A DNA stretch of 34,173 nt from a virus: IMG/VR virus record IMGVR_UViG_3300019849_000017, positions 1 through 34,173 of that record; one strand, 5' to 3'. The position numbers and the translations under genes were made by a program. Each line of letters starts with the position of its first letter. Position 1 is the stretch's first letter. Shown in pieces: positions 20,266-30,201 of this stretch. The notes under the pieces were generated by a model. It was not told the origin of the DNA. It saw only the letters and a program-made list of their open reading frames with translations, and ran no database searches.

Positions 20266-20550
20266 TTATCCCTCACGGTTTTGGTTGTAAACTTTATCGA
20301 CATCTCTACGAAATCGCTCAACTAATCTATCTAGCTCTTGAGGCAAGTGTGAGTATATAAATGGGGGGATTATTCTATAACGAATATCCATTTGGACATC
20401 GCCCTCTTCTCTAGGCCAGCGTCTTAATGAAATCTCATACTCGTCAACATGTCTACAGGGTGGAGTTATTGTTAATTCAAAACGTAACTCAATACATTTT
20501 GTTATCGCTTGAATTAAAAGCTCTTTTTGTTCGTTCTTCTTACCTCTCAC
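20266..20550 (-). CDS. Small basic protein, unknown function
   Basis: This 94-aa protein has a helix (KELLIQAITKCIELRFEL), a central charged strand region (EYEISLRRWPREEGDVQMD) and a C-terminal helix (LDRLVERFRRDVDKVY). The start overlaps the end of the HNH endonuclease gene by four bases. No known motif is visible. Confidence 0.7.
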   Translation of the reverse strand: MRGKKNEQKELLIQAITKCIELRFELTITPPCRHVDEYEISLRRWPREEGDVQMDIRYRIIPPFIYSHLPQELDRLVERFRRDVDKVYNQNREG

Positions 20551-21260
20551 TTCTCACCTCTCTCCCCAGGCACCAAACCCTCAAGCTGCTTCATAACAAT
20601 ATCTTTAATCTGTGGATCTAAACTATTAAGTGTCGCTTCAAGCATTTCCAGAAGCACAGGGACATCGGTGCGACCAGAAACGTGGTTCCAATTTTTCATT
20701 CTGACAACTTCACTAACTAATTTATGATCAATGTCAAACAAGGCCGCTATCTTACCCTGAGCAATGCTTTTTGATGCTAAAAACCTTATCTCTTCAACTT
20801 GCCATTCTTGTAGTTTAGCCATTGAGTTTTTAGAGCCTTCACCGTTTGTACCATGTAATTTCTTGTGAGAGTTGTTCTCTTTAGCTGTACATATTAAAAG
20901 GTTAGATGCCTTGTTGTTTGTTGGGTCTCCATCTAAATGAGCCACGTGATAACCAGGGGTTCTTTTTCCCTCACAAAAAGCGTGTGCTACTAGCCTATGA
21001 ACTTTTTGAGTTTCATACTTTTTAGTATAATCATTCTTTAAACCGACTGAGCAGTATCCGCGCCTATCAACTGCCTGCTTTAACACTCGATAGTCTTGGC
21101 CGAGTTTGTCTTTGTGATTGCCGGGCTTAAGCAATGACCTCACTCGACCCATATTAGAAACTTGATAGTGGCGAGCGTCTGTAACAACAATCCACCTCTC
21201 CTCAGTCGCACTCTCAGTGCGTTGCTTTACGCTTTGTAGGTAGGTTTCTAGGTCACCCAT
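20547..21260 (-). CDS. HNH homing-type endonuclease with NUMOD4 domain
   Basis: This 237-aa free-standing endonuclease has a NUMOD4 DNA-binding motif near residues 22-45 (RWIVVTDARHYQVSNMGRVR). The HNH core follows (VHRLVAHAFC, then YHVAHLDGDPTNNKASNL and CTAKENNSHK), supplying the catalytic His and the Asn/His metal ligands. The C-terminal part has a helix-turn-helix-like segment (SIAQGKIAALFDIDHKLVSE) that could add specificity. It lies within the early-type gene run with 4-base coupling downstream. Such genes are usually mobile elements in their own right. Confidence 0.88.
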   Translation of the reverse strand: MGDLETYLQSVKQRTESATEERWIVVTDARHYQVSNMGRVRSLLKPGNHKDKLGQDYRVLKQAVDRRGYCSVGLKNDYTKKYETQKVHRLVAHAFCEGKRTPGYHVAHLDGDPTNNKASNLLICTAKENNSHKKLHGTNGEGSKNSMAKLQEWQVEEIRFLASKSIAQGKIAALFDIDHKLVSEVVRMKNWNHVSGRTDVPVLLEMLEATLNSLDPQIKDIVMKQLEGLVPGERGEK

Positions 21261-21863: not shown

Positions 21864-22065
21864 CCAGCTGTTTTAAAGTTTCGTAAGCATAGTCAGGTGC
21901 TTCTACACAACTAGTCATTGCACTAATTTCTTTTAAAACCTCAACCGCTTTGTCGTAGGCTGATTTTTCTATGACGTGAACTAGGTCACAGTCGTCTAAT
22001 CCTGGATGTTCATCGTAATAAACATAATCAACCTCGCTAACATAAAACTCTCTCGGTTTATTCAC
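21853..22065 (-). CDS. Small acidic protein, unknown function
   Basis: This 70-aa protein begins with an acidic, Tyr-rich segment (FYVSEVDYVYYDEHPG) and ends in a helix that includes SAYDKAVEVLKEIS, a short pattern frequent in phage early proteins. It overlaps the HNH gene upstream by 8 bases and the next gene by up to 11. No function can be assigned. Confidence 0.7.
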   Translation of the reverse strand: MNKPREFYVSEVDYVYYDEHPGLDDCDLVHVIEKSAYDKAVEVLKEISAMTSCVEAPDYAYETLKQLGEI

Positions 22066-22411
22066 CTTTAAACTCCTTTGTGAACCTGCCAGACCTTCTG
22101 TTCAATAACTGAGTAGCGTGTCTATTTTTATCGATGCAATCTTTTACGTTTTGTTTTTGGGTGCCAGCAAATAAGTGAAAAGGATTCACACACTTTTTAT
22201 TATCACAGTGATGGCAGCACAATAAGTCGCCTAGAGGTTCTATAAAATATTCATAGCTCCATCGATGTACCTGATAATATTTATAATTAGCACCAAACTT
22301 ACCATAGCCATCTCGCCTTAAAGTGCCGATCCATTCCCAGCAATCATCTGAGTATTTGACTTGAGAAAAAAACCTCTCAGCTATGTTTTGATGTGTGTAT
22401 TGATTAGGCAT
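22058..22411 (-). CDS. HNH endonuclease (zinc-finger HNH_3-like)
   Basis: This 117-aa protein has an opening CWEWIGTLRRDGYGKF, then VHRWSYEYFIEPLGDL, then CCHHCDNKKCVNPFHLFAGT and NVKDCIDKNRH. This is the common small phage HNH with paired Cys zinc ligands around the His-Asn-His site. It is distinct from the NUMOD4 type at 20547-21260, so the phage has two unrelated HNH genes. It overlaps both neighbours by 8 bases. It is probably a homing or nicking enzyme. Confidence 0.87.
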   Translation of the reverse strand: MPNQYTHQNIAERFFSQVKYSDDCWEWIGTLRRDGYGKFGANYKYYQVHRWSYEYFIEPLGDLLCCHHCDNKKCVNPFHLFAGTQKQNVKDCIDKNRHATQLLNRRSGRFTKEFKGE

Positions 22412-25942: not shown

Positions 25943-25972
25943 TATAGGTGTTGGAAAAGAAAGAGGTATCAA

Positions 25973-26104
25973 ATGCAATATATAATCCGTTTACAAGCCT
26001 ATTGTCTAAGATTAGAAAATGAAGGTAGCTTTAAGATGGCTGCAGTTGTTCGTAAAGAATTAGAGATGACCTATAAAAGATATAAAGCTTTAGGTTTGGT
26101 ATAG
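25973..26104 (+). CDS. Small protein (43 aa), first gene of the plus-strand operon
   Basis: This 43-aa basic helical peptide (MQYIIRLQAYCLRLENEGSF, then KMAAVVRKELEMTYKRYKAL) has an AGAGGT ribosome site. The second half could form a helix-turn-helix-like pair, but it is too short for me to call a DNA-binding domain. As the first gene after the divergent promoter it may be regulatory. Confidence 0.6.
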   Translation: MQYIIRLQAYCLRLENEGSFKMAAVVRKELEMTYKRYKALGLV

Positions 26105-26113
26105 GGGGTCTGC

Positions 26114-26197
26114 ATGAGTGTATTCTGGTGTGGGCTTGCAATTATTCTAATACAACTGTTTTGTTATGTCGCAGAAAAAAGATCGAGAAAAAAATGA
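26114..26197 (+). CDS. Very small membrane protein (27 aa)
   Basis: This 27-aa peptide has one hydrophobic span (VFWCGLAIILIQLFCYV) and a basic tail (EKRSRKK), giving an orientation with the C-terminus inside. GGGGG lies five bases before the ATG, and its stop overlaps the next start as ATGA. The function is unknown; small early membrane proteins can act in exclusion. Confidence 0.55.
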   Translation: MSVFWCGLAIILIQLFCYVAEKRSRKK

Positions 26198-26424
26198 TAG
26201 TAGAGTTTAAAGAATCACAAGCAACGTTTGAAGTAGAGATAGATTGTGGAGATATGGGATTTCAATGGGGAGAGATGTCATGTGAGTTCTCTACAGATGG
26301 TAACGTTTATAAACTTGGTTCTTATGAAATATATTTGCTGCTAGATGGCAATAAAATCAAAGTAACAAGCCATGTTAGTGAGTTTGTTGTTGATGATTTA
26401 TTCGAACAATATATAGTCAACTAG
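26194..26424 (+). CDS. Small acidic beta-rich protein, unknown function
   Basis: This is 76 aa from the ATG at 26194, coupled by ATGA to the tiny membrane gene. It is acidic with alternating strands (SQATFEVEIDCGDMGF, YKLGSYEIYLLLDGNKIKVT). The longer frame from 26128 overlaps the membrane gene and is not needed. It is the last protein gene before the structured non-coding stretch. No family is recognised. Confidence 0.7.
   Translation: MIVEFKESQATFEVEIDCGDMGFQWGEMSCEFSTDGNVYKLGSYEIYLLLDGNKIKVTSHVSEFVVDDLFEQYIVN
26390..26417 (+). promoter_or_regulatory. Possible promoter for the non-coding RNA region
   Basis: TTGATG (26390-26395) and TATAGT (26412-26417) are 16 bases apart at the end of the preceding gene. 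They would start a transcript near 26424 that runs into the hairpin at 26451-26516 and, if that is passed, into the structured RNA at 26518. This is a match of moderate quality only. Confidence 0.35.
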
Positions 26425-26450
26425 CTGCAACCATAGTTTTGTCTATTTTT

Positions 26451-26516
26451 AGCGCCACTTGACACTAAGATACCTTCTTTCCAACAGGTCCTAAATGCGA
26501 GTGGCGCTTTTTTTTT
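26451..26516 (+). terminator. Rho-independent terminator or short hairpin RNA with long loop
   Basis: AGCGCCACT (26451-26459) pairs perfectly with AGTGGCGCT (26500-26508), and nine T follow (26508-26516). The loop is 40 bases and holds a small internal stem (ACCT with AGGT). It ends the transcript of the three small genes. The loop is longer than in a usual terminator, so it may be a separate stable RNA. Confidence 0.7.
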
Positions 26517-26517
26517 A

Positions 26518-26679
26518 GGATAGGGCGTGCGTTAGCTGTGGTGGACAATCCGTTATCAACCGGGCGAATAGTACCGGCCACTAGAATCATGCAGGTTTTA
26601 ATGGGAGTGACAGACACATAGCTTCGTTTGAGCCGATGACCAACCTTTAGGATCGCAACTAACCTATCCGCTTTTTTTT
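26518..26679 (+). ncRNA. Structured non-coding RNA element, copy 1 (unrecognised family)
   Basis: This 162-base element, about 50% G+C, is in an AT-rich gap without a gene. The ends close as GGATAGG (26518-26524) with CCTATCC (26663-26669), soon followed by eight T. Inside are P2 GCGTG/CATGC (26525-26529, 26588-26592), P3 GTGG/CCAC (26538-26541, 26578-26581), a small hairpin GGA/TCC, TATCAA (26554-26559), and P3b CCG/CGG around GGCGAA. A 3' domain closes with AGGTT/AACCT (26593-26597, 26642-26646). The same blocks in the same order occur at 28561-28754. No coding frame is shared: this copy has an early stop. The promoter is uncertain. Confidence 0.65.
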
Positions 26680-26692
26680 ATTTATAAACAGT

Positions 26693-26721
26693 TTGACATT
26701 AAAGAATGCCTTCCATAATGT
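26693..26721 (+). promoter_or_regulatory. Strong predicted promoter for the recombination/SSB operon
   Basis: TTGACA (26693-26698) is a perfect -35. After exactly 17 bases comes TAATGT (26716-26721), about 31 bases before the ATPase start codon. ATTTATAAACA (26680-26690) sits just upstream and matches a box in the XRE promoter exactly, so the regulator may act here. Confidence 0.7.
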
Positions 26722-26752
26722 TATTTCACATCAACGTTGGAAAGGAGAGTTA

Positions 26753-27568
26753 ATGTCCGTAATTCGTAAGGCTAGTCGAAGCTCAATACCTTTAAAGATA
26801 GGCATTATGGGCATATCTGGGTCGGGAAAAACATATAGCGCATTAAAGTTAGCTCAAGGCTTATGCCAAGACCCATCAAAGATTGTTGTTATTGATTCTG
26901 AAACAACAGGAACTATATCTGATTTTGAAAATCAATACGAGAATAGAAAACGTGGGTCAGATTTCTATGACAACTTATTAGGAAAACCTTTCAGTGTTCT
27001 ACCTATCGAACCTCCTTATACTCCTAAGAAGTACGAGAAAGCGATCAACTTATGTGTCGCCGAGGGTTTTGAAGTTATTATTGTCGACTCCGCTACTCAT
27101 GTTTGGGATGGACAAGGGGGAGTGCTTGATATTCATAATTCTTTAGGTGGACAACTTACGCATTGGAAAGAAACAAATACACACCACATGACATTTATAA
27201 ACGCGATGATGAATTGCTCTAAGCATGTAATTGCGACAGTTCGTATGAAGAAAAAACTTGAGGCTTCGAAAAATGACAAAGGCAAAACACAAATAACCAA
27301 ACTGGGCGAGAAAGCAATTCAGCGGGATGGTTTTGAATATGATCTCCATGTTGTATTTGAAATTAATAAGGAATCTCACAAAGCTGAAATTGATAAAGAT
27401 CGTACTGGATTATTTGAGGGGAGGGTTCCATTTGTAATAACGGAAAAGATTGGGGAAGAGTTGAAGAATTGGAACTCGAAGAAAGAAGAGAAGAAAGAAG
27501 AAGGCGTAAAGAAGAGCACGAAGCCAAGCGAAACGAAAAGTACGAAAGCTCAAGCTACGGAGCCTTGA
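26753..27568 (+). CDS. Sak4-like / AAA_24 phage ATPase (putative recombination protein)
   Basis: This is 271 aa from the ATG at 26753 with an AAAGGAG ribosome site; the longer frame from 26693 would start inside the promoter. The RecA-like core has a Walker A at residues 20-27 (GISGSGKT), ESE-like acidic residues in VVIDSETTGTISDF, and a Walker B in FEVIIVDSATHVWDG. A later MTFINAMMNCSKHVIATVR helix-strand follows. The last 40 residues are a Lys/Glu-rich tail. Sak4 proteins promote single-strand annealing together with SSB, which is encoded just downstream, so the two probably work together in replication-linked recombination. Confidence 0.85.
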   Translation: MSVIRKASRSSIPLKIGIMGISGSGKTYSALKLAQGLCQDPSKIVVIDSETTGTISDFENQYENRKRGSDFYDNLLGKPFSVLPIEPPYTPKKYEKAINLCVAEGFEVIIVDSATHVWDGQGGVLDIHNSLGGQLTHWKETNTHHMTFINAMMNCSKHVIATVRMKKKLEASKNDKGKTQITKLGEKAIQRDGFEYDLHVVFEINKESHKAEIDKDRTGLFEGRVPFVITEKIGEELKNWNSKKEEKKEEGVKKSTKPSETKSTKAQATEP

Positions 27569-27738
27569 AATTTTTAGAAATAATCCCAGGAGGAAGAAGA
27601 GTACCAATGCCTTGGGGGGTCTCATGGACTCCTTGGGCTAAGTTTAAATGTAAAGTGTGCGGCAATGTTATTGAGGGCGACCCTCTTAAATTTATGCACT
27701 CAAAACCAGACAGCTGCGGCTGTTTCGATGAATTTTAG
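27565..27738 (+). CDS. Small zinc-ribbon-like protein
   Basis: This is 57 aa if started at TTG 27565, which overlaps the ATPase stop as TTGA, or 43 aa from the ATG at 27607. The C-terminal half has CKVCGN and, 20 residues on, SCGCF, giving CxxC...CxC as a likely zinc site. The same frame is open back to 27469, within the ATPase tail, because that GA-rich stretch reads as Glu/Arg/Lys in two frames; I consider that part unlikely to be translated. The small protein lies between the ATPase and SSB and may bind nucleic acid. Confidence 0.6.
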   Translation: MKFLEIIPGGRRVPMPWGVSWTPWAKFKCKVCGNVIEGDPLKFMHSKPDSCGCFDEF

Positions 27739-27746
27739 GAGGTATT

Positions 27747-28160
27747 ATGTCATCGGTGAATATGGCAATTGTTGTGGGAAGAATCGGGAGTGACCCTGAA
27801 TCAGAGACTATCACAAGCGGTCAGACTTATTGTAATTTCAGTGTTGCCACAAGTGAGAAGTGGACGGATCGAGATGGGCAAAAACAAGAGAGAACAGAAT
27901 GGCACAGGGTTACGGCATGGGGAAAGCTTGCTGAAATATGTGCAGAGTATCTTAAAAAGGGATCAATGGTTTATGTGGAAGGTCAGATTCAAACAAGATC
28001 TTGGGAAGATGGTACTGGTACAAAGAGATATTCTACAGGTATTAACGCCAAAAGTGTTAAGTTTTTAGGATCTAAAAATTCAAAAACATCAGATGACAAC
28101 CTACCAAATTTTGCTCCTCAAACTGCAGCTGAAGCTAAAGACCAGGAGATTCCGTTTTGA
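27747..28160 (+). CDS. ssb: Single-stranded DNA-binding protein
   Basis: This 137-aa protein is an OB-fold SSB. MSSVNMAIVVGRIGSDPE is followed by NFSVATSEKW, ERTEWHRVTAWGKLAEICAE and GSMVYVEGQIQTRSWED, covering the DNA-binding domain up to about residue 105. A flexible linker then leads to the acidic tip DQEIPF, the docking peptide for replication and repair partners. It has a strong ribosome site (AGGAGG). Neighbours (Sak4-like ATPase, zinc ribbon) suggest a replication-recombination operon. Confidence 0.96.
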   Translation: MSSVNMAIVVGRIGSDPESETITSGQTYCNFSVATSEKWTDRDGQKQERTEWHRVTAWGKLAEICAEYLKKGSMVYVEGQIQTRSWEDGTGTKRYSTGINAKSVKFLGSKNSKTSDDNLPNFAPQTAAEAKDQEIPF

Positions 28161-28369
28161 TCGAAGAATTAAAAATCATTGCTGATATTATGAAAGATGT
28201 AACAGATGGTGCCATGTATATCGCCATCCTTTATATGGCTATTAGCTATTTGAAACCTATTAGTATGGCAGCCATCTTTTCTTTTACTATTATAAAAGTG
28301 TCATCTTTTTTCAGGCAACAAAAAGTAGATTCTAAATATCTAGAGGTTATTACTAAAGATGAACTTTGA
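28157..28369 (+). CDS. Small membrane protein, TTG start
   Basis: This 70-aa protein starts at TTG 28157, which overlaps the SSB stop as TTGA and has AGGAG eight bases upstream. Residues about 18-50 are hydrophobic and could form one or two spans (GAMYIAILYMAISYLKPI, SMAAIFSFTIIKVSSFF). A basic tail follows. Its function is unknown. Confidence 0.65.
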   Translation: MIEELKIIADIMKDVTDGAMYIAILYMAISYLKPISMAAIFSFTIIKVSSFFRQQKVDSKYLEVITKDEL

Positions 28370-28556
28370 AATAATAAATTTTGCTGGATTCTATTATGTT
28401 CGATATAAAGAACCAGATATATTTGGATACAAATATTTAGATAAAAAAGTCCAATTCGAATATTGGACTCGTAAAGACTATATTCAAAAGTATTGTAAGA
28501 TGACCAAATATGAATTGATTAAACTTTTAAAACTTTATGGAATTGAAGTTAAATAA
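28359..28556 (+). CDS. Small Tyr/Lys-rich protein, unknown function
   Basis: This 65-aa basic protein is rich in Tyr, Phe and Lys (GFYYVRYKEPDIFGYKYLDK), with a helical C-terminus (KMTKYELIKLLKLYGIEVK) of the kind seen in small DNA-binding tails. It overlaps the upstream gene by 11 bases and is followed at once by structured RNA copy 2. No family is recognised. Confidence 0.65.
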   Translation: MNFEIINFAGFYYVRYKEPDIFGYKYLDKKVQFEYWTRKDYIQKYCKMTKYELIKLLKLYGIEVK

Positions 28557-28560
28557 TTTT

Positions 28561-28754
28561 TGACCCATCGGCGTGGGAAGCTGTGGCGGCAAGATAGCTC
28601 GTGTTTGCCCTATCAAACCAGGCGAAATATTGGCCACTGGAGACACGCGGGAATCTGGGAGAACGACGATGCCTCTTTACTTGATTTCTGGCATCATCGG
28701 AATACTGGTGCAATCAAGATTGCCAGAGTCGCGCCTGGCATGGGTCATTTTTTT
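28561..28754 (+). ncRNA. Structured non-coding RNA element, copy 2 (unrecognised family)
   Basis: This 194-base element is about 54% G+C beside DNA of about 18%. TGACCCAT (28561-28568) pairs with ATGGGTCA (28740-28747), then seven T follow. Inside are GGCG/CGCC, P2 GCGTG/CACGC (28571-28575, 28644-28648), AGCTGTGG, P3 GTGG/CCAC (28583-28586, 28634-28637), P3a GGCAA/TTGCC (28588-28592, 28605-28609), TATCAA, and P3b CCA/TGG around GGCGAA. The 3' domain closes with TCTGG/CCAGA and has a GATGCC/GGCATC hairpin. The loop of that hairpin (CTTGATT) can pair with AATCAAG downstream as a pseudoknot. The next gene's AAGGAG follows three bases after the T run, so an attenuator role is possible. Confidence 0.65.
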
Positions 28755-28768
28755 ATAAGGAGAATAAA

Positions 28769-29101
28769 GTGTTAAGTGAAGAAACAAAAAACCAATTAAT
28801 CCTGTCTCTTTTAGGTTTAGATAAGTCTAAAGAGAGCAAACAAAGTTTTTACCAAATTGGCGAAGACTATGTATTAAGAACAGTCACTATGATTTACCTT
28901 GGAAAAATGAAGCAAGAGACTGAAGATGCTTTGATACTTGAAGACTGTGCTTGGATACCTGAAACCTCTCGTTGGTCTGATTTTTTGCAAGGAAAGAAGC
29001 CTAACGAAATGGAACCTTACAGTGAAGACGTTATTGTTTATAAAGGTGCTCTTTTAGATGCGACTGTTATGAAGAAAAAAATCAAAAGAGAGATAATATA
29101 A
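28769..29101 (+). CDS. Conserved phage protein (DUF6948-like), unknown function
   Basis: This 110-aa protein starts at GTG 28769, six bases after AAGGAG. The core QIGEDYVLRTVTMIYLGKMK, then DALILEDCAWIPETSRWSDF, then NEMEPYSEDVIVYKGALLDA matches, from memory, a family found in many phages and mobile elements, often next to a low-complexity glycine-rich protein. That pairing holds here. The function is not known to me. The start lies 14 bases after the terminator-like end of RNA copy 2. Confidence 0.75.
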   Translation: MLSEETKNQLILSLLGLDKSKESKQSFYQIGEDYVLRTVTMIYLGKMKQETEDALILEDCAWIPETSRWSDFLQGKKPNEMEPYSEDVIVYKGALLDATVMKKKIKREII

Positions 29102-29307
29102 TGAATTCAGCTATAAAGCGTGAAAGCTGGTCATGGTCAGGGTCATGGTCATGGTCACGGTCATGGTCAGGGTCAGGGTCACGGTCATGGTCAGGGTCAC
29201 GGTCAGGGTCATGGTCAGGGTCACGGTCAGGGTCATGGTCATGGTCACGGTCATGGTCATGGTCAGGGTCAGGGTCATGGTCAGGGTCACGGTCATGGTC
29301 AGGGTAA
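29101..29307 (+). CDS. Dipeptide-repeat protein (Trp/Gly/Arg-Ser) encoded by a hexanucleotide array
   Basis: The ATG overlaps the previous stop (TAATG), giving 68 aa: nine ordinary residues (MNSAIKRES) and then alternating W, G or R with Ser, ending in Gly. The coding DNA is 29 copies of NGGTCA. The array has no stop in any frame, so a second frame (GTG at 29120, His/Gln-Gly repeats ending in [11 protein letters not shown]) and a third are also open. I prefer the first frame for its coupled start. No function is known; glycine-rich low-complexity neighbours of this kind recur beside the preceding gene's family. Confidence 0.5.
29128..29304 (+). repeat. NGGTCA hexanucleotide tandem array
   Basis: There are twenty-nine complete NGGTCA units and a final GGG. 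The first base is T, G or C and never A; the other five bases do not vary. All three forward frames and two reverse frames are open. The array should be prone to slippage and length change. Confidence 0.98.
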
Positions 29308-29478
29308 TTTTGGTGAATTAGAATCAAAAAAAACCCTTTGATGATGAACAGAGCAAAGAGTCCGGCAATGTCAGAACATCCAGATTATAAAATAACATAA
29401 AAGTAGCCCAAATTGATACACCCATTAAAGTAATTGCCAGACCTTCCGATAGGTATATTGTTGGAAAGGAAAGGTGTT

Positions 29479-30201
29479 ATGAAAAATTTAATTCTTTTAT
29501 TATCTACTCTTATTTTTATTGTTAACTGTAAATCTGGTGATTCTGAGCCAACCACCCTTACGTCTATTGTCCCAGATTGTGACGTTTGTGGGGATTTTAT
29601 TGAAGACGATAAGGATAGCCTCTCGGTTAATGCCAAAGCTCTTCTCGACTCAGTAGGCACTCTCAATACATACTTTACTACAACTGAGATTAACGAACGC
29701 GGAGAAGTTGTTAAAACCTATCCAGACTCTCAAATGCTATTCGCTCTAAGAGCTTACGTACATAGCACAACCACTCAATCCACTGCCAATCAAGTCTGTG
29801 ATGAACTATCCCAAGTCTATGATGACTTTGGTATATCAAATAGCATAGTGTACTTTTCTGGGACACATAACAGTAATTTCGGCGGCTCTACTACTTGTAT
29901 GCTGGAAGTAAATCTTCCTAATGCTACTATCGCAGTGGACCCGATATTAAACAGATCTTATATTGGTAATCCAAATATTCACGGTCAAAACATTCTTAAC
30001 GCAGATCAGATAATGGAGGCTCTAGATGCCAATACAATGTCATCTGTTGCTATGAGCCCAGACGGTTTTCTTAACCCACAACCTGACTGGGTGATCCCTT
30101 CAGGTGCAACATTCATCGATATGTTTGCTGACAGTGGTTTCAATACACAAGCTACATTTTTAGAGTTTTGTGATGATGTATTTCAAAACCTAGTCAAATA
30201 A
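29479..30201 (+). CDS. Phage-encoded lipoprotein, unknown function
   Basis: This is 240 aa from the ATG at 29479 with an AAAGG ribosome site. It begins with a lipoprotein signal peptide (MKNLILLLSTLIFIVNC) whose lipobox IVNC gives Cys17. The mature protein is acidic and has further Cys residues (CDVCGDF near 37-43, QVCDEL, TTCMLEV, FCDDVF) that could form disulphides outside the cytoplasm. The charge next to Cys17 is Lys, not Asp, so outer-membrane sorting is plausible. It lies at the end of the early plus operon, away from lysis genes, so it may be a cargo gene, for example for superinfection exclusion. It converges with the nuclease gene by 12 bases. Confidence 0.8.
   Translation: MKNLILLLSTLIFIVNCKSGDSEPTTLTSIVPDCDVCGDFIEDDKDSLSVNAKALLDSVGTLNTYFTTTEINERGEVVKTYPDSQMLFALRAYVHSTTTQSTANQVCDELSQVYDDFGISNSIVYFSGTHNSNFGGSTTCMLEVNLPNATIAVDPILNRSYIGNPNIHGQNILNADQIMEALDANTMSSVAMSPDGFLNPQPDWVIPSGATFIDMFADSGFNTQATFLEFCDDVFQNLVK

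Follow-up and report, generated by a model that had tools for sequence, protein, structure and literature searches.

Two diverged copies of a very probable structured RNA, new to Rfam, among the early genes of a bacterial virus

The early operons of phage HK022 contain two related structured RNA copies, putL and putR; a put RNA is about 70 nt long, forms two stem-loops, lies downstream of an early promoter and suppresses termination by binding RNA polymerase (PMC9378689). The two elements that we describe here are likewise a pair of structured RNAs, related to each other and located in early transcription units of a phage. They differ from the put RNAs, however, in being 160-195 nt long (162 and 194 nt) and multibranched and in ending on a U-tract, a distinction drawn from their described size and shape. 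Leaders of the riboswitch or attenuator type that contain a terminator offer a second comparison. As in such leaders, both copies are intergenic and structured and have a U-tract as their 3' end, and the second copy stops just before a Shine-Dalgarno sequence; here, however, no Rfam class is matched, no ligand gene theme is apparent, and it is the closing helix itself that stands before the U-tract. GOLLD, ROOL and other ornate RNAs linked to phages are also phage-borne structured noncoding RNAs, and are several times larger than these copies, for which there was no Rfam match. Finally, the RNA antitoxins of type III toxin-antitoxin systems (ToxI-like) resemble the copies in combining a structured RNA, a terminator-like U-tract and a small gene. 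The copies differ from these in that no tandem repeats were found inside either of them and in that homologues of the downstream gene occur without the RNA; where tandem repeats would precede a ToxN-like gene, copy 2 precedes a 110-aa gene whose product matched no Pfam or PHROG family.

The source of the sequence is an IMG/VR virus record of 34,173 bases, analysed over its whole length (the window), in which the minus strand carries most of the late genes and the plus strand, at about 25,970-30,200, an early cluster. This cluster encodes a RecA-like/Sak4-like ATPase downstream of copy 1 (26753-27568; phrog_1366, E 8e-66; phrog_124, E 2e-11), a single-stranded DNA-binding protein (SSB) between the copies (27747-28160; phrog_44, E 2.5e-51) and several small genes with no assigned role; the 110-aa gene (28769-29101, plus strand), which has homologues in other phages, lies directly downstream of copy 2. 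The virus is a bacterial virus that had not been described before. Its terminase shows about 24% identity to known terminases, its Sak4-like protein reaches about 40% identity at most with phage records, and tblastn found no match for its capsid protein. A helix-turn-helix protein of this virus shares 44% identity with a protein of that type on a Bdellovibrio plasmid, which may serve as a lead to the host but no more. Elsewhere in the window we noted two HNH endonuclease-like genes (20547-21260 and 22058-22411), one with NUMOD4 and HNH_3 above the cut-off and the other with a weak HNH_3 below it. A tandem array of about 30 TGGTCA-like units of 6 (29128-29305) follows just past the 110-aa gene, and similar GGTCAN and GGAGCN arrays were seen on a viral contig (L212) beside its two copies of a homologue of this gene. 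By eye, a GTTGGAAA(A/G)G-like sequence recurs before several early genes, at 25950, 26745 and 29458, and is perhaps a common Shine-Dalgarno or regulatory motif.

Copy 1 (26518-26679) and copy 2 (28561-28754), each taken from the closing helix P1 to the U-tract, are both intergenic and on the plus strand. The original prediction had claimed a set of ordered blocks and a contrast in base composition, and both were borne out: GCGTG, AGCTGTGG, TATCAA, GGCGAA and GGCCACT can be read directly in the two copies in the same order, and G+C content is 50.6% in copy 1 and 54.0% in copy 2, against 23-38% in the AT-rich flanks and 40% overall. The pattern AGCTGTGGYGG-N5..35-TATCAA-N1..8-GGCGA has exactly two matches in the 34,173-nt window and none in 100 shuffles. 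Local alignment of copy 1 with copy 2 gave scores of 21 and 213 with two scoring schemes, for which 1000 dinucleotide-shuffled pairs peaked at 17 and 177; with a third and strictest scheme, 7 of 1000 such pairs attained the observed score. By these comparisons, the paralogy of the copies is beyond chance.

Such a pair could also be what remains of a small protein gene. Within copy 2 there are a 61-codon frame and an inner 29-codon ORF (28669-28758), which stands behind a Shine-Dalgarno-like GGGAG and would encode a hydrophobic peptide. This inner ORF is absent from copy 1, however, and no reading frame of copy 2 matched a PHROG family. The copies have no common frame, as had been claimed, because the frame that copy 2 keeps open is interrupted by stops in copy 1 and because the spacings between the blocks differ by 12, 1 and 2 nt, which shifts the frame. 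We therefore consider a protein origin extremely improbable.

RNAalifold, run without guidance on a MAFFT alignment of the cores (A3; 26525-26592 in copy 1 and 28571-28648 in copy 2), returned P2, P3a, P3b and P3, the last with a bulged U and two extra pairs. P2 pairs 26525-26529 with 26588-26592 in copy 1 and 28571-28575 with 28644-28648 in copy 2, and P3 pairs 26538-26541 with 26578-26581 and 28583-28586 with 28634-28637, respectively. P3a (26543-26545/26549-26551 and 28588-28592/28605-28609) is followed by TATCAA (26554-26559 and 28611-28616) and by P3b (26560-26563/26574-26577 and 28618-28621/28630-28633), whose loop holds GCGA at 26564-26567 and 28622-28625. These are the helices P2, P3 and P3b and the hairpin after P3 that had been put forward from the sequence, and they pair as stated in both copies. 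The A3 core fold had a z of -4.75, and none of 1000 column shuffles reached an equal or better energy. Between the copies, pairs are kept through a change from A-U to C-G in P3a and from G-C to A-U in P3b, and there are compatible G-U changes in P2 (G-U/G-C) and P3b. Four structure-blind global alignments all yielded P2, P3 and a further hairpin, P5, and one of them P3b too. The core, as the two sequences show it, joins P2 and P3 to a three-way junction that contains P3a, a UAUCAA strip and P3b with its GCGAA loop.

The compatible G-U changes also bear on whether the element is RNA or DNA. A DNA site for recombination, replication or packaging that has fold-back symmetry would be in keeping with copies that flank recombination and SSB genes and that differ sharply from their flanks in G+C content. 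Changes to and from G-U suit RNA pairing, however, the loops are conserved as well as the helices, and the U-tract is found only on the 3' side, on one strand. A DNA element is very unlikely on these grounds.

The 3' parts of the copies end in the same way. In copy 1, P1 pairs GGATAGG (26518-26524) with CCTATCC (26663-26669) at a mean pair probability of 0.99 and is followed by GC (2 nt) and 8 T (26672-26679); in copy 2, it pairs TGACCCA (28561-28567) with TGGGTCA (28741-28747) at 0.96 and is followed, with 0 nt between, by 7 T (28748-28754). A long-range end helix before 7-8 T, another element of the original prediction, is thus present in both. P5, located 5' of the closing strand, is a helix additional to those predicted earlier. 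It has the form TTAG-GATCGCAA-CTAA in copy 1 (26647-26662, abutting P1) and GCCAG-AGTCGCGC-CTGGC in copy 2 (28722-28739, beside P1), shows two pair-preserving changes between the copies and was returned by unguided RNAalifold, which independently yielded P3b and P5 from a full-length MAFFT alignment. The 8-nt loop of P5 has UCGC at the identical place in both copies (26653-26656 and 28729-28732). This sequence complements the GCGA of the P3b loop, and the two could form a kissing contact, both sides of which are invariant, so that there is no covariation to assess. Another helix, P4, was drawn by hand; it would pair AGGTT (26593-26597) with AACCT (26642-26646) in copy 1 and AATCT (28652-28656) with AGATT (28717-28721) in copy 2, abutting P5 in each case. 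Shuffling either copy produced a P5-type hairpin with an abutting P4 in 0.13-0.14% of cases, and in at most 0.001% when UCGC was included in the loop, in tests framed after the sequences had been seen.

Single-sequence folding did not back the consensus. P1 was strong in both copies; the pair probabilities of P2, P3, P4 and P5 were near 0, and that of P3b was 0.97 in copy 1 and 0.02 in copy 2. The consensus fold has an energy of -30.8 kcal/mol in copy 1 and -50.5 kcal/mol in copy 2 against minima of -45.0 and -62.2, that is, 12-14 kcal/mol above the minimum, which tertiary contacts or a ligand could account for. The copies were not more stable than their shuffles (z -0.92 and -0.76), the full-length alignments, with z of -1.1 to -1.7, fell short of the core, and 117 of 500 letter shuffles were as good in pair counts, a comparison of only two sequences. 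The structural case as a whole rests on these two sequences, and P1 and P4 are outside the reach of unguided alignment. A chance similarity with no conserved structure would fit both the small sample and the single-sequence folds. It is hard to reconcile, however, with the alignment scores against shuffled pairs, with a pattern found twice in the window and never in its shuffled counterparts, and with the column shuffles of the core, which leave it little probability. Mechanism aside, we hold it highly probable that a real RNA structure is common to both copies, and very likely this is a genuine case of a duplicated structured RNA that Rfam does not contain.

The RNA had been said to belong to no known family. 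In agreement with this, cmscan with Rfam 15 gave no match at the gathering cut-off in the window, and none that overlapped either copy at E up to 10 in 26400-28850. ARAGORN found no tRNA or tmRNA gene in the window; the 7-bp closing helix with its adjacent P5 is tRNA-like in outline only. We then built a covariance model of the core, R1, given that automatic alignments misplace P1 and P4. By construction, R1 recovers copy 1 (26524-26593, 86.8 bits) and copy 2 (28570-28649, 97.2 bits). R1 gave no credible match around homologues of either the helix-turn-helix protein or the 110-aa gene, nor in 28 whole records or about 500 genomes (about 300 of one phylum and 198 of another). Among 160 loci obtained with a Sak4 alignment, the RNA was absent by descriptor and covariance search, and it was not found upstream of the homologues of the 110-aa gene at 10 viral loci. 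Searches for related loci with the Sak4-like protein alone or the terminase alone gave no relative, and nothing relevant came from blastn, run with both copies against phages and with copy 2 against plasmids. Pattern scans of IMG/VR returned 19 matches for AGCTGTGG..TATCAA..GGCGAA, 18 for TATCAA..GGCGAA..GGCCACT and 10 for GGCGTG..AGCTGTGG..TATCAA, in none of which the helices could be seen by eye; we rejected these matches, which look coding or unrelated by eye and several of which are repeats of one gene.

We regarded a match in one of the Sak4-related loci (L094; E 0.83, 16.3 bits) as noise, and weak R1 matches in three genomes (G019, G163 and G171; 18.6, 27.1 and 25.0 bits) were rejected as coding: L230 and L231 lie inside long open frames, and L219 looks coding by eye. 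When about 2.9 Mb were scanned with the descriptor, both copies scored 31 and everything else at most 26. The original prediction is thus upheld as to a structured RNA that occurs twice and belongs to no known family, with the unguided covariation-aware folding of the core, the pair-preserving changes, the lack of a common frame and the Rfam result in its favour. A family that extends beyond this genome found no such support: no third member came out of the IMG/VR patterns, blastn or the covariance scans. This absence is weak evidence of rarity, because records near this genome may be missing from the sets searched.

The most likely reading, to which we assign a probability of roughly 0.4, is that a single structured RNA, representing a new phage RNA family, is present here in two diverged copies and would act in cis as a leader between early genes, coupled to a terminator. 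The compact fold, including P4 and the loop-loop contact, would keep P1 together; once the RNA folds, P1 would form and the U-tract behind it would release RNA polymerase, and if folding were blocked or altered by some factor, the gene behind the element would be transcribed. Copy 2 would gate the 110-aa gene, and copy 1 possibly the Sak4-like and SSB genes. Copy 2 begins 4 nt past a stop codon, and its U-tract, directly preceded by P1, ends about 4 nt before the Shine-Dalgarno AAGGAG of the 110-aa gene. Being wedged in this way fits a leader, and the position of the U-tract leans towards a leader over a small RNA. Several observations speak against it: P1 encloses about 140-180 nt, not a standard terminator; the terminator scan did not list P1; and the 110-aa gene has homologues that lack the RNA.

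Copy 1 suits a leader less well, with a terminator-like element before it and a promoter-like TTGACA after it. The former (26450-26516, plus strand) consists of a 9-bp helix, AGCGCCACT/AGTGGCGCT, with a loop of about 49 nt and a T-run, and gave a weak RF02871 match below threshold (E 0.068). The TTGACA, at 26693 between copy 1 and the Sak4-like gene, was seen by eye and was not listed by the promoter scan; it would uncouple copy 1 from that gene. We also observed that the upstream element has the same layout of a closing helix plus U as both copies and, by eye, that a similar TTGACAyTAA...CCTTC..CCA occurs on either side of copy 1 (26459-26484 and 26693-26715), possibly as promoter or operator repeats.

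Alternatively, the copies could be two paralogues of a trans-acting phage small RNA, with the U-tract as its 3' end, which would bind a host or phage protein or pair with targets. This is the main rival to a leader in cis, although we think it somewhat unlikely. The compact fold with a closing helix and U-tract end is consistent with it, and copy 1, which has a terminator-like element on one side and a promoter-like sequence on the other, looks like a separate unit. The RNA does not appear to be tied to one gene, because no relative of the neighbouring genes carries it among the loci searched. At the 5' ends of the copies, however, the promoter scan picked up nothing promoter-like, and copy 2 is close to genes on both sides, where ending the RNA would cut off the next gene. 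An RNA that acts on RNA polymerase to prevent termination, by analogy with putL and putR, might also be expected to occur as a pair of similar structured copies among phage early genes, with terminator-like sequences nearby. The size and multibranched shape of the copies, their own U-tract ends and their position in one gene cluster set them apart from the put RNAs, and we regard antitermination as quite improbable. Returning to the cis-acting leader, we are doubtful of its most specific form, in which a new phage RNA class, with a core three-way junction, a GCGA-UCGC loop-loop contact and the closing helix as terminator stem, would be used twice to gate separate early genes on some signal.

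Our claim is modest while a homologue is lacking. Phage structured RNAs have been little explored beyond well-studied hosts, and a duplicated, diverged pair in one small genome carries its own evidence for a common fold and can be tested directly. Should termination prove to be gated by the closing helix, the element would represent a design of phage regulatory RNA that is absent from Rfam.
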